Shown here: positions 329-9,599 of the stretch, one piece after another | Numbering within the stretch: position 1 is the first letter of the stretch | How the letters are laid out: each line of letters starts with the position of its first letter | Assembly: GCA_002686955.1 (NCBI GenBank) | Contig: NYZA01000248.1 | Coordinates: 1 to 11,243, forward strand | Direction of reading: 5' to 3' | DNA length: 11,243 nucleotides | DNA from: Gemmatimonadota bacterium | GTDB taxonomy: Bacteria; GCA-2686955 | Translations under genes and position numbers: made by a program | The notes under the pieces: generated by a model | Databases searched by the model: none | What the model was told of the DNA's origin: nothing | What the model saw: only the letters and a program-made list of their open reading frames with translations

Positions 329-1474
329 GTGATGCCAACCGATCTTGAGGCTCTTCGATCGACGGCGATGCTGCTCCTGCTACTCATGGCGGGAGCGTGC
401 TCGCCCGCGATCGCGGCTCCGCTCTGCCCCGTCTGCGAGCGTGAGGCGTCCGTCTCGGCACCACTGGACCGAGACACCGGGCTCCGCTACCACGAGTCGT
501 GCGTCGAGAAAGGAGCCGTCCCTCGCTGCGATCAGTGCGACGGGCCCGCTCCGCGACGGATCGTCGTCGAAAAGGGGGAGTTTCACGAAAGCTGCTTTCG
601 CGAGCATATGGCGCCCCGTTGCGTGGAATGTGGACTGCCGGTCGGCCGCCACGGCATCGACGACGGGCCCATGCACCCTTCCTGTTTCCGGCGGCTGCAA
701 AGGAGGGAGCCCACCCTGCCCGGCTCGATGAACGAGCCGCCCTTGCGTTGCGATCTCTGCGGAGACGCGATCTCCGGGGAGCTCGAGGTCGGAGCATGGG
801 GCGAGATCTACCATTCGCGGCATGCCGAGAGGACGGCCCATTGCGACGCGTGCGGCAGGCTGGCGGCCGAACATCTTTCGGGGGAGCCCTTCGCCTGCGC
901 GGATGGGCGCACGCTCTGCGGCGTTTGCGCCGAGACCGCCATCTCGACGAAGAGCGAAGCGCGGAGACTGTTCGCGCATGTCGGCGCCCGTCTCGCCGAG
1001 CGGCGGATCGATGTCGATGCGGGGCGGGTGAAACTGGTGCTCGCCGGATTGCAAGAGCTGAGCAACGAGAGGAACGATGGCCGCCGCGCGCGCGGACTCA
1101 GCGAGCACACCTACGACCGAAAAGGCTGGACCGGCTCGACGATCCATCTACTCGCACCCCTTCCCGAAGTGGAGCTACGGGGCGTTCTGGCGCACGAGCT
1201 GGGCCACGTATGGCTGGCATCGAGGGGGCTCGGAGATCGGGCGGCTTGGGCGGTGGAGGGAACCTGCAATCTCTTGCAGCTCTGGGAGCTGCGGCACCGC
1301 GGGGGCGAGCTGGGCACCCGGCTCATCGAGAAGCTGGAAGAGGACGACGACGAGGTCTACGGTGAGGGGCTTCGCCGGGTGCGCCGTCGTGTATCGTCCA
1401 CCGGTTGGAAGGGCTGGACCGAGGAGTTTAGCGAGATGCCCGCGATACCCGAGAGGAGCTTCGGCGAGCGATGA
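329..1474 (+). CDS. Secreted LIM/DA1-like zinc metallopeptidase
   Basis: A 381-residue protein, probably exported. Residues 14-31 form a hydrophobic signal (MLLLLLMAGA then SPAIA-AP); a Cys at 24 gives a poor lipobox, so signal peptidase I cleavage is more likely. Starts at GTG 329, ATG 332 or ATG 368 are all possible. The N-terminal half is packed with zinc-finger ligands: C33-x2-C36-x18-H55-x2-C58, C67-x2-C70-x15-H86-x2-C89, C98-x2-C101-x14-H116-x2-C119, then C141-x2-C144-x17-H162-x2-H165 with C172-x2-C175-x21-C197-x2-C200, which resembles a full LIM domain. The C-terminal half carries VLAHELGHVWL (H289, E290, H293) followed by WAVEGTCNLLQLWEL (E310). This order and the EG-C-N/Q motif match the DA1-like peptidase domain of plant DA1, where LIM modules precede the HEMMH site. 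All three zinc ligands and the catalytic Glu are present, so it should be active. The substrate is unknown. The 3' end overlaps the next gene by ATGA. Confidence 0.75.
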   Translation: MMPTDLEALRSTAMLLLLLMAGACSPAIAAPLCPVCEREASVSAPLDRDTGLRYHESCVEKGAVPRCDQCDGPAPRRIVVEKGEFHESCFREHMAPRCVECGLPVGRHGIDDGPMHPSCFRRLQRREPTLPGSMNEPPLRCDLCGDAISGELEVGAWGEIYHSRHAERTAHCDACGRLAAEHLSGEPFACADGRTLCGVCAETAISTKSEARRLFAHVGARLAERRIDVDAGRVKLVLAGLQELSNERNDGRRARGLSEHTYDRKGWTGSTIHLLAPLPEVELRGVLAHELGHVWLASRGLGDRAAWAVEGTCNLLQLWELRHRGGELGTRLIEKLEEDDDEVYGEGLRRVRRRVSSTGWKGWTEEFSEMPAIPERSFGER

Positions 1475-3734: not shown

Positions 3735-3773
3735 GATTAGCGCGTCCCCAGTCTCTCTAATCCGACTTTTTTT
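3735..3773 (+). terminator. Possible weak intrinsic terminator for the yfhO-like gene
   Basis: A perfect 6-bp inverted repeat, GATTAG (3735-3740) and CTAATC (3757-3762), with a 16-base loop, followed after four bases by seven T residues (3767-3773). It lies 65 bases after the yfhO-like stop. The stem is short, the loop large, and the T-run is also the coding sequence for a KRKK patch at the helicase C-terminus, so it may be coincidence. Confidence 0.25.
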
Positions 3774-6199
3774 CGCTTGGTGCCCAAATGTGGTCGTTGT
3801 CTCGACGGAGGAAGCCGGAGATCGAAACGCCCTTGGGCGTCCAGCGCGTAGCCCAGCGATTTCAGCACGCCGATCGCGCCGGATCGATCGCAGCCGAGCC
3901 AGCTCGGAATCTCCTCGGGCAACACGAACTCGCCCGCCTTGCGCAGCCGCCGCAGCAGCGCCGCGACCCGTTCCAAAACGTCGACGCGGATCCAGCGCGG
4001 ACCCGCCTGCGCGTAACCGAGTGCTCGGGCGAAGTCCGCGGGGGTCAGCGCCGCCAGCGGCAGCGATGGAGGGGATTCGGCGCTCACCTCGGGGTGGTCT
4101 TCCAGCCCCCGCGCTACGGTCCAGAGCACCGCCCGCGCTTGCATCGACGCCGGGCGCAAGAGCGAGCGAACGAAGACATTCTTGGCGCCCAGGCGGATGT
4201 CCAGGCGGGAGAGGGTTCGCCGGTCCTGCTCCGTGAGCGATCGGATCAGCTCTTTGATGTTTTTCCGCCTCGCGAAGCCGAACCCCTCGCGCAGTCGATA
4301 GCAGAGCCCGCGGCCCGCCGCCCCGAGCGCCTCCGACGCCGGGCGGGAGAGGGGCGCGAAGAGCTCCTCTACATGGTCGAGCGCGGCCGCCCGCAGGCGC
4401 CGCCGCACGCGGTCACGCATCGCGCCGTCCAGCTGCTCGCTCTCGATCGCTTCGGCCGAAGGGCGCACGGGAGATTCCCCCTTCACGAGCCTGCCCACCG
4501 GTGCGCCCTTCCAGTGGATCCATGCGTGGTGATCGATGTGGAATGCGCTCGATTCAGCGGCCTCCAGCTCGGTGACCCTCGCTTCGAGATGCGGAACGAG
4601 TCCCCGCTCCACCAGCGCCCGCACGCTCGGCCCGAGCCCTTCGATCGGTTCGAAAACGAGCCCTTTCAGCGTGCCCACGTCGATTCCGTCAGCCTCGACC
4701 CGATCGTCTCCGGCGATCTTCAGCTCACAGCTCTCCCCTCGCGGCCTCTTCGCGAGCAAGATGCTGGCCCGGCGATCGACGAATCGTTGCGTGAGGCGAT
4801 CGTGTAGGGCGTCGGAGAGACGATCCTCGACCTCTCGCGCCCGCTCCTGCCATTCGCCGGCGCCACGGACCCAACCTGGACGGTGCGCGATGTAGCTCCA
4901 GGTGCGGATGGCGGCCATTCGGTCGATCAGCCCGTCGCAGTCCCCGATGGGATCATCGATGGGCTCGATCCGCCGGGCGATCCAGTCCGCCGGGACCTCG
5001 CTCGCCGGCCCGCGCAGTTGGGTGAAGAGCTCCCCGAGCAGATTCAGATGCTCCAGAGACATGCCGCCCGCGAAATCGGGGATTCCGCAGACCTCCCAGA
5101 GAAGGCGAATCCCTTCTTCGTCCCCCGTTTCCGCCTGAATGGAGTTGCGCTCCAGGAGCTCCCCGAACGCCCTCTCGTCGTCGGCGCCGCGCTGCCTCTT
5201 CAGGAAGGGATGCGGCGGGGAAGCAGCGAGTGAGGCCCGAAGGTCGGCGACCGTGCTGAAGTCGAGGCGCGACTCCCGGTAGCGCATCTGAGCTATCGGG
5301 GGGAAGAGATGGGATTCCACCGCGGCGACGAGCGCTTCCGGCAGAGGGGAGAGGGGGGACATCGGGCCGAAAGTGCCGTCGGCGCGAAACCGGCCGGCCC
5401 GACCCGCGATCTGGGCGAGCTCGGCCGGGTGCAGATCGCGGAACTGGCGGCCGTCGAACTTTCGCAGCGAAGCGATCGCCACATGGTCGACGTCCATATT
5501 CAATCCCATTCCGATCGCATCGGTCGCGACGATGTAGTGCACCTCGCGCGACTGATAGAGCGCCACCTGCGCGTTGCGCGCCCGCGGAGAGAGCGCCCCC
5601 AGCACGACCGCCGCTCCGCCGTGTCTGCTCTTGAGCCGCTCCGCGATCTCATAAACATCGGCAGCCGAGAAGGCCACGACGGCGGTGCGCGGAGGGAGCT
5701 GGTGGAGTTTTCGCGGCCCCGCGTAGCTCAGAGTCGACAGGCGCGGGCGGGTCTGGACGGCCACCTCGGGCACCAGACGCCGCAGCAACCCCTCGATCGT
5801 GCCCGATCCGAGAAAGAGGGTTTCGGTCCGGCCCCGAGCTCGCAGAATCCGATCGGTGAAGATATGTCCCCGCTCGTCGTGCTCCGCGAGCTGTACCTCG
5901 TCGACCGCCAGAAAATCGACCTCCTTCTCCCAAGGCATCGACTCGACGGTACACACGTGGAATCGGGGAGCGGCGGGGATCCGCTTCTCCTCGCCGGTTA
6001 CCAGCGCCACCGCCCCCTCGCCGACTTCGCCCACGACGCGATCATAGACCTCCCGCGCCAGCAGACGGAGCGGCAGACCGATCATGCCGCTGCGGTGGGC
6101 GATCATCCGCTCGACGGCGAGATGGGTCTTGCCGGTGTTGGTCGGCCCGAGAATCGCTTCGACCGCGGGTCGCCGGTCGGCCTCGCGGGATGGGGACAT
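3737..6199 (-). CDS. SUV3-like DExH-type ATP-dependent RNA helicase
   Basis: An 820-residue superfamily 2 helicase of the Suv3 (mitochondrial RNA degradosome) type. Counting from ATG 6199, the Walker A motif GPTNTGKT is at 18-25, followed by GLPLRLLAREVYDR as in Suv3. The Walker B is VDEVQ (99-103), the DExQ form of this family; motif III is GSGTIE (131-136), motif V is ATDAIGMGLN (225-234), and motif VI is QIAGRAGR (263-270). The long C-terminal part has the helical region seen in alphaproteobacterial homologues, and a basic tail (KRKK). Suv3 unwinds RNA/RNA and RNA/DNA duplexes for 3'-5' degradation; a role in RNA turnover here is inferred. The frame is open back to 6259, but a Shine-Dalgarno AGGAG at 6214-6210 lies 10 bases before ATG 6199 and 7 before GTG 6202, so the start is at one of these. 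Convergent with the yfhO-like gene, divergent from selD. Confidence 0.85.
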   Translation of the reverse strand: MSPSREADRRPAVEAILGPTNTGKTHLAVERMIAHRSGMIGLPLRLLAREVYDRVVGEVGEGAVALVTGEEKRIPAAPRFHVCTVESMPWEKEVDFLAVDEVQLAEHDERGHIFTDRILRARGRTETLFLGSGTIEGLLRRLVPEVAVQTRPRLSTLSYAGPRKLHQLPPRTAVVAFSAADVYEIAERLKSRHGGAAVVLGALSPRARNAQVALYQSREVHYIVATDAIGMGLNMDVDHVAIASLRKFDGRQFRDLHPAELAQIAGRAGRFRADGTFGPMSPLSPLPEALVAAVESHLFPPIAQMRYRESRLDFSTVADLRASLAASPPHPFLKRQRGADDERAFGELLERNSIQAETGDEEGIRLLWEVCGIPDFAGGMSLEHLNLLGELFTQLRGPASEVPADWIARRIEPIDDPIGDCDGLIDRMAAIRTWSYIAHRPGWVRGAGEWQERAREVEDRLSDALHDRLTQRFVDRRASILLAKRPRGESCELKIAGDDRVEADGIDVGTLKGLVFEPIEGLGPSVRALVERGLVPHLEARVTELEAAESSAFHIDHHAWIHWKGAPVGRLVKGESPVRPSAEAIESEQLDGAMRDRVRRRLRAAALDHVEELFAPLSRPASEALGAAGRGLCYRLREGFGFARRKNIKELIRSLTEQDRRTLSRLDIRLGAKNVFVRSLLRPASMQARAVLWTVARGLEDHPEVSAESPPSLPLAALTPADFARALGYAQAGPRWIRVDVLERVAALLRRLRKAGEFVLPEEIPSWLGCDRSGAIGVLKSLGYALDAQGRFDLRLPPSRQRPHLGTKRKKVGLERLGTR

Positions 6200-6209
6200 C
6201 ACGAAGGAG

Positions 6210-6214
6210 CTCCT
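6210..6214 (-). promoter_or_regulatory. Ribosome binding site deciding the helicase start
   Basis: AGGAG on the minus strand, preceded by AAA, with 7 bases to GTG 6202 and 10 to ATG 6199. It argues against starts further upstream (6259, 6229). About 12 bases further upstream TATGCT could serve as a -10 box, but no good -35 is visible. Confidence 0.6.
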
Positions 6215-6293
6215 TTTGCCACCTAGCATAACGGTTCGCCCTCTGCCTGGCCGCCCCATCCGTTAGTCTTTCCGCCGGGAGTGAACGGAAAGA

Positions 6294-7337
6294 ATGAACG
6301 AACCTCGACTCACAACTCTGGTGCCCGCCGGCGGCTGAGCGCGCAAGCTCGGCGCGAAGGACCTGGTCGAGGTCCTCGGCAAAGTGGCGGCCTTTCCTCA
6401 TCCATGGGTCCGGCAAGATGTGGGACCGATGGAGGATGGCGCTCTATTGTCTCCACCCGCCGATCAGGGGCTCGTATTCACGGTCGATTTCATCACGCCG
6501 ATCGTCGACGATGCCGAGACTTTCGGAGCGATCGCGGCGGCCAACGCCCTCTCCGATGTGTACGCCATGGGGGGCGAGCCCCAAGTGGCCCTGGCGACCT
6601 GCGGCTTCCCCGAGGATCGCATCGGCACCGACCTCCTCGCGCGCATCTTCCAGGGGGGGCGGGACAAGGCTGCCGAGGCCGGCTGCGCGGTGGTCGGGGG
6701 GCACACCGTGGTCGACCCCGAGCTGAAATACGGGCTCTGCGTGATCGGCAAGGTCGATCCGGAGCGAGCTCTAAGACAGATCGGAGCGCGCGCGGGCGAT
6801 CGTCTCGTCCTGACGAAGCCGCTCGGTTCCGGCATCTCGGCCCAGGCCTTTCGCAAGGGGCGGATCGGAGACACCGAAATGGCGGGGGTCATCGCACTGA
6901 TGACTGCGCTCAACCGCGAGGCGAAGGACGCGGCGCTGGCGGCTGGCGCGAGCGCCGCGACCGACGTGACCGGCTTCGGGCTGCTTGGCCATCTGCACCA
7001 TCTTCTGAAGGCCTCGGGCATGTCCGCGACGCTTTCAGCCCGTGACGTGCCCCGCTTGGACGCGATCGATGACCTGGCGGCCGGGGGATTCGTGCCGGGC
7101 GGATCGAAGCGGAACCTCGAATATGTGTCGTCACATCTGCATTGCGACGGGCAAATCGCGGAGTCGGAGCGGCTGGTGCTCGCCGACGCTCAGACCTCGG
7201 GTGGGCTATTGGTCGCGGTCCCGCCCGAGGGCGCGCGGAGCATGGTCGAGCGGCTCGATGCGGCCGGGGCGACCGGTGCGGCCGTGATCGGAGAGATCGA
7301 GGACGGCCCCGCGGGAGAGATCCGGGTCGCGCGGTAG
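6294..7337 (+). CDS. selD: Selenide, water dikinase SelD containing selenocysteine (in-frame TGA at 6336-6338)
   Basis: SelD makes selenophosphate from selenide and ATP, the selenium donor for selenocysteine and selenouridine. Read from ATG 6294 with TGA 6336-6338 as Sec, the product is 347 residues, the same length as E. coli SelD, and begins MNEPRLTTLVPAGG-U-ARK. U15 and K18 align with E. coli Cys17 and Lys20. Downstream are MEDGALL, TVDFITPIVDD, NALSDVYAMGGEP, GGHTVVDPELKYG, PLGSGI, DVTGFGLLGHL and SGGLLVAVP, all family landmarks including the metal- and ATP-binding aspartates. An in-frame TGA at 6282-6284 lies just upstream, and ATG 6294 is the first start after it. GGGAG at 6277-6281 is a distant ribosome site (12 bases). 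A SECIS-like hairpin follows the UGA. Conventional calling would start at GTG 6384 and delete the active site. The PAP2-like gene follows after 26 bases. No selA, selB or selC is in the window. Confidence 0.9.
6358..6376 (+). promoter_or_regulatory. SECIS-like hairpin downstream of the selD UGA
   Basis: A perfect 6-bp stem, AGGACC (6358-6363) paired with GGTCCT (6371-6376), closes a seven-base loop TGGTCGA. The loop begins 25 bases after the UGA, inside the roughly 16-37 base distance known for bacterial SECIS elements, and its GGUC resembles the GGUCU apical loop of E. coli fdhF that SelB recognises. The hairpin lies in the SelD coding sequence, as bacterial SECIS elements do. The fit is by eye only. 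Confidence 0.6.
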
Positions 7338-8976: not shown

Positions 8977-9216
8977 ATGGACGCTGTACCGATTCACTAC
9001 GCCAAGACCCATCTCTCACGACTCATCGAACGAGCCCGCGCGGGGGAGGAGGTGATCATCGCCAGGGGGAAGACACCGGTCGTGCGTCTGGTGCCGATAC
9101 CTCAGGGCAAGAAGGGGAGGGTCTTCGGCGCGATGCGAGATCTGGTCACGGTGGACGACTCCTTCTTCGAGCCGCTCTCGGATGAGGAGCTCGCCCGCTG
9201 GGAAGGCCGGGAATGA
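8977..9216 (+). CDS. Phd/YefM-family antitoxin
   Basis: 79 residues. The N-terminal part, VPIHYAKTHLSRLIERARAGEEVIIARGKTPVVRLVPI, is the Phd/YefM fold: helix with the x-AK-x-x-LS-x-L pattern, the GEEVII strand, and the G-x-P-V-x-R-L strand, which dimerises and binds operator DNA. The acidic C-terminal tail (DDSFFEPLSDEELARWEG) is the part that folds onto and blocks the toxin; PLSDEELARWEG is common in antitoxins paired with PIN toxins. AGGAG lies 5 bases before ATG 8977. The stop overlaps the toxin start (ATGA at 9213-9216), coupling translation of the two. Likely regulated by its own product at the palindrome 8954-8968. Confidence 0.9.
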   Translation: MDAVPIHYAKTHLSRLIERARAGEEVIIARGKTPVVRLVPIPQGKKGRVFGAMRDLVTVDDSFFEPLSDEELARWEGRE

Positions 9217-9599
9217 GACTCCTGCTGGATACGCACGCGCTCCTGTGGTGGCTCGCGGGAGACGAGCGGCTCACCCGTGTTGCCAGAACCGCGATATCGA
9301 AGTTGGAGAACCAGGTGCTGGTCAGCGCGGCATCGGCATGGGAGATCTGCACCAAGGTCAGGCTCGGGAAGCTGCCGGGGGCGGTGGTGTTGGCGGCCGA
9401 CTTTCCAGGCTGTCTTGCCGCTCAGGGATTCACGCCGCTCGCCATCTCCGTCGTTCATGCCCAGCGCGCCGGCAGCCTGCCGGGGCCGCACCGCGATCCT
9501 TTCGACCGCATGCTGATCGCGCAGGCCCAGGCGATGGAGGTGCCGCTGGTTAGCAACGAGCTTCAATTCGATCGGTACGGCATTCGACGGCTCTGGTGA
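9213..9599 (+). CDS. vapC: VapC-type PIN-domain ribonuclease toxin
   Basis: 128 residues, full length for the family. The acidic active-site residues of a PIN domain are in order: D6 (LLLDTHALLWWL), E44 (SAASAWEICTKVRLGKL), D95 and D98 (HRDPFDRMLIAQA), with the closing motif VPLVSNELQFDRYGIRRLW, where E116 stands at the position usually held by Asp. VapC toxins are Mg-dependent ribonucleases that cut tRNA or rRNA when not bound by antitoxin. The SAWE-KxxLGKL subtype pairs regularly with Phd-type antitoxins, as here. The start overlaps the antitoxin stop. It looks intact, so the locus is likely functional. Confidence 0.92.
   Translation: MRLLLDTHALLWWLAGDERLTRVARTAISKLENQVLVSAASAWEICTKVRLGKLPGAVVLAADFPGCLAAQGFTPLAISVVHAQRAGSLPGPHRDPFDRMLIAQAQAMEVPLVSNELQFDRYGIRRLW

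Follow-up and report, generated by a model that had tools for sequence, protein, structure and literature searches.

Selenocysteine (Sec)-containing SelD is the second most widespread selenoprotein family in prokaryotes and is among the commonest selenoproteins (PMC1794560, PMC13188914). In the established pathway, selenophosphate made by SelD from selenide and ATP is used by SelA to turn Ser-tRNA-Sec into Sec-tRNA-Sec, which SelB then takes to a SECIS-marked UGA (PMC1794560, PMC13188914). A Sec-containing SelD therefore depends on the selenophosphate it makes to be synthesised in full length. The window described here (the whole stretch of 11,243 nucleotides that was analysed) contains a selD gene with an in-frame TGA. 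The initial annotation had proposed that this SelD is itself a selenoprotein, of a kind known from other organisms; such proteins do form a widespread family, and the analysis below supports the proposal. We put the probability at roughly 97% that the UGA at 6336-6338 is read as Sec by the genome's own SelA, SelB and tRNA-Sec, a reading that rests on sequence comparison.

The window selD and its in-frame TGA

The features of the gene are as follows.

6294..7337, + strand: selD, 347 codons from ATG to TAG, encoding selenide water dikinase (selenophosphate synthetase); from translation, family model and E. coli alignment
6336..6338, + strand: in-frame TGA, aligned to E. coli Cys17 and read as selenocysteine (predicted Sec15); from translation, alignment and homologues
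6345..6347, + strand: conserved Lys18 (= E. coli Lys20), which completes the UxxK motif of Sec-containing SelD; from alignment, with the motif as given in PMC13188914

Translation of 6294-7337 (+) with the TGA taken as Sec gives MNEPRLTTLVPAGG-U-ARKLGAKDLVEVL..., 347 residues followed by TAG; a longer excerpt past the Sec residue reads MNEPRLTTLVPAGG-U-ARKLGAKDLVEVLG.... The TGA, at codon 15, is the only one in the frame. Alignment with E. coli SelD (PDB 3u0o, 347 aa) pairs residue 15 of the product with Cys17; Lys18, three residues on, pairs with Lys20, and this part of the alignment is gapless. The frame and the alignment both agree with the length of 347 codons, as in E. coli, and with the family pattern RLTTLVPAGG-(TGA)-ARK that had been noted earlier. 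With 328.8 bits, the protein clears the cut-off of 125 set for TIGR00476, the NCBIfam equivalog model of selD, and it has AIRS and AIRS_C domains. The interval first assigned to the feature, 6294-6384, has the correct gene start and covers the N-terminus only, as the gene runs to 7337. The window selD is an intact gene and not a decaying one.

If the TGA is not read through, an uninterrupted ORF of 317 codons begins at GTG 6384, which is where annotation lacking read-through had been expected to start the gene. Ordinary annotation would thus miss the N-terminus of SelD. The same ORF could be taken to mean that translation starts at GTG 6384, for instance once it has terminated at the TGA, and yields a shortened SelD that lacks the N-terminal loop. 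However, relatives conserve both the 14 codons that precede the TGA and the 15 that lie between it and 6384, and the short product would have neither the catalytic Sec15 nor Lys18. We consider a start at GTG 6384 very improbable as compared to read-through from the ATG. Some termination at the selD TGA is nevertheless likely, because recoding in E. coli is only partial (30-40% in vivo, PMC4513850).

Several other genes of the window were also identified. An 840-aa Suv3-type DExQ helicase (PF22527) is encoded at 3737-6259 (-), divergent from selD and with 34 bases between the two start codons; selD also has a Suv3-like neighbour in L018, the other family genome, where the identity is 68% over 235 aa. 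The gene at 329-1474 (+) encodes a protein of 381 aa that combines LIM-like, Cys-rich zinc-finger repeats with a HELGH metallopeptidase motif. This protein matches Pfam DA1-like (PF12315, 29.5 bits, cut-off 25), the peptidase family of plant DA1. A Phd/YefM antitoxin and a PIN-domain (VapC-like) toxin form a pair with a four-base overlap at 8977-9599 (+).

Sec decoding genes and other likely selenoproteins

The genome assembly (270 contigs totalling 4.28 Mb, with 84.5% completeness and 0.9% contamination) was searched for the genes of Sec decoding, which the host had been predicted to possess in full. This prediction held. selA was found on contig C8 (434.5 bits), selB on contig C119 (359.4 bits summed, 641 aa) and tRNA-Sec on contig C140, the last at 76.9 bits (Rfam cut-off 47) and identified by ARAGORN as tRNA-SeC with anticodon tca. 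The three genes are spread over three contigs, none of which is the window's. A mixed assembly is an unlikely source for them because contamination is low.

The same genome also encodes, besides SelD, at least five likely selenoproteins, each with its TGA at a redox position, in answer to the earlier suggestion that further Sec genes be sought. One is a SelW-like protein (contig C186), in which the TGA lies in CVQU, the CxxU motif of the SelW family. Four are AhpC-TSA/thioredoxin-fold proteins in which the TGA comes first in a UxxC active-site motif: WUPVC (L113, contig C66), WUPIC (L115, C27), WUGSC (L116, C14) and WUPIC (L121, C108). Both types correspond to known selenoprotein families, SELENOW-like (PF10262, CxxU) and Prx-like thiol:disulfide oxidoreductase (PF00578, UxxC) (PMC13188914). 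A paralogue of the C14 protein, on contig C47, has the Cys form of the motif, WCGPC. The frames of the four UxxC proteins are 601-918 residues long in three instances and 307 in one; in most of them, the thioredoxin-like domain lies inside a long frame with further domains. The C66 protein has a C-terminal FlgD-like sorting-type tail (FNPSTLIRFEL...VYDVRGHRIRTL-like, as read by eye).

In-frame TGAs in several genes of one genome could also mean that TGA is a sense codon genome-wide, for Trp for example, with no selenocysteine involved. However, TGA is the natural terminator of several genes here (among them the YfhO-like gene, the antitoxin and PIN genes of the window, and selA), and therefore there is no genome-wide reassignment. 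The in-frame TGAs sit instead at Cys positions of redox motifs, in a genome with tRNA-Sec, SelA and SelB. The chance that TGA is a general sense codon is, in our view, close to negligible, and decoding as Sec is the reading retained for selD.

Neither mnmH/YbbB nor glutathione peroxidase was found in this 84.5% complete genome by searches whose controls were positive elsewhere. A search for the deiodinase family gave no match either here or in its controls. Formate dehydrogenase-like matches were present, under the family cut-off and with no in-frame TGA, and no Sec-containing formate dehydrogenase was found. As no mnmH was found, Sec synthesis is the one route by which this incomplete genome is seen to use selenophosphate. 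The lineage is thinly sampled, with two genomes up to phylum level in the comparison set, both of one family. It is possible, though we hold it only tentatively and think it somewhat doubtful, that the selenoproteome (SelD, a SelW-like protein and at least four UxxC proteins, with no mnmH and no Sec-FdhA found) has not been described before for this lineage, and that SelD would then be one of the genes by which a lineage without Sec-FdhA retains the Sec trait.

Conservation and folding around the TGA

The 82 SelD proteins compared came from public genomes, from the second genome of the family and from the window itself. The Cys17 column contains Sec (TGA) in 64, Cys in 18 and no other residue. 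In the close clade, TGA is present at the exact codon in 10/10, the window's gene included. The nine other members are 61-74% identical to the window SelD and are mostly from MAGs labelled Myxococcota or Deltaproteobacteria; in each, either the frame is full-length or the match is long. Ahead of the TGA, the codons likewise match those of relatives (RLT..LVPAGG). These agreements, together with Sec or Cys in 82/82 homologues, indicate that the position of the TGA is more than chance. Pairwise dN/dS downstream of the TGA is about 0.17-0.34 (nine comparisons); upstream, over the 11 codons that are comparable, it ranges from 0.05 to 0.47. By this measure, purifying selection acts on the codons that follow the TGA. 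Neither Cys at this codon in close relatives nor decay of the gene, both raised by the initial annotation as points to check, was observed.

These data bear on whether the TGA arose by a nonsense point mutation, or by an error in sequencing, in a selD that is decaying or of the Cys type. The assembly is of the metagenome type and Cys-containing SelDs occur in more distant relatives, both of which would fit such an origin. However, nine other genomes have TGA at the same codon and the gene is under purifying selection, and the genome has the full Sec machinery. A mutation or error is highly unlikely and is refuted in practice by the shared TGA, which leaves a functional Sec codon as the preferred reading.

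In a maximum-likelihood tree, the window SelD pairs with that of the other family genome (support 99/92), and this pair is nested in the MAG clade (support 100/99). The Cys state requires at least eight changes on the SelD tree, which is consistent with repeated exchange between Sec and Cys. For SelD, conversions from Sec to Cys have been reported and none from Cys to Sec (PMC1794560). In the case of L052 (CP070734.1, a complete MAG chromosome), the SelD match in the stretch compared is limited to residues 5-170, at 73% identity; truncation, frameshift or fusion is possible there.

A hairpin follows the TGA and is a candidate SECIS.

6358..6376, + strand: candidate SECIS hairpin, stem AGGACCT / AGGTCCT, loop GGTCG; from folding, significant for the Sec-SelD set and not for this gene alone

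The hairpin spans 20-38 nt past the TGA and has GGU in its loop. For the window gene alone, folding gave a z of -1.38 and, as compared to synonymous shuffles, -1.43, with 10% of shuffles folding as well. Across the set, post-TGA folding relative to synonymous shuffles had a mean z of -1.35 in the 64 Sec-SelDs and +0.06 in the 18 Cys-SelDs (Mann-Whitney p 8e-6, a value that is too favourable since the sequences are related); the mean z in the close clade alone was -0.64. Compensatory change on both sides of the stem was not seen in the close clade, where the stem columns are nearly invariant and so little informative. A scan of the window and of 6250-6500 against Rfam gave no match to a SECIS family. 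A CcsR1 match from Rfam (15.5 bits) is weak and was taken as chance. We conclude that the hairpin after the TGA is likely, but not proven, to be a SECIS.

Proposed working and comparison with known systems

We propose that the ribosome would read the UGA at 6336-6338 as Sec by way of the genome's SelA, SelB and tRNA-Sec, with the hairpin just past the codon probably guiding insertion. Sec15, placed in a mobile N-terminal loop, would act with Lys18 to convert selenide and ATP to selenophosphate. This product would feed SelA, and SelD would in this way help to make its own active-site residue as well as that of at least five other selenoproteins.

Sec-containing SelD is common and well known, and the window SelD is therefore of low surprise; knowledge of SelD is unchanged by it. 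With a TGA in the catalytic column, complete machinery and further Sec genes, the window selD can serve as a clean positive control when raw sequence is searched for selenoproteins.

E. coli SelD, a Cys form, is of the same length (347 aa) and fold family and can be aligned over its whole length; it carries Cys17 where the window SelD has Sec15. As compared to the Sec-containing SelD / SEPHS2 family (TIGR00476, UxxK), the window SelD has the same length, domains and machinery genes, with Sec likewise in the Cys17 column and Lys again three residues further. There is no substantial difference; Sec and Lys are separated by AR in the window SelD, whereas others have, for example, AC, GC, AA or AS. 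The AR pair is common to the window SelD and its close Myxococcota-labelled relatives. The SelDs of MAGs labelled Myxococcota or Deltaproteobacteria (L021-L027, including UBA9160) are 61-65% identical to it, have the same TGA codon and an identical LVPAGGUARKL, and form one supported clade with the window SelD, from which they differ by sequence divergence only.
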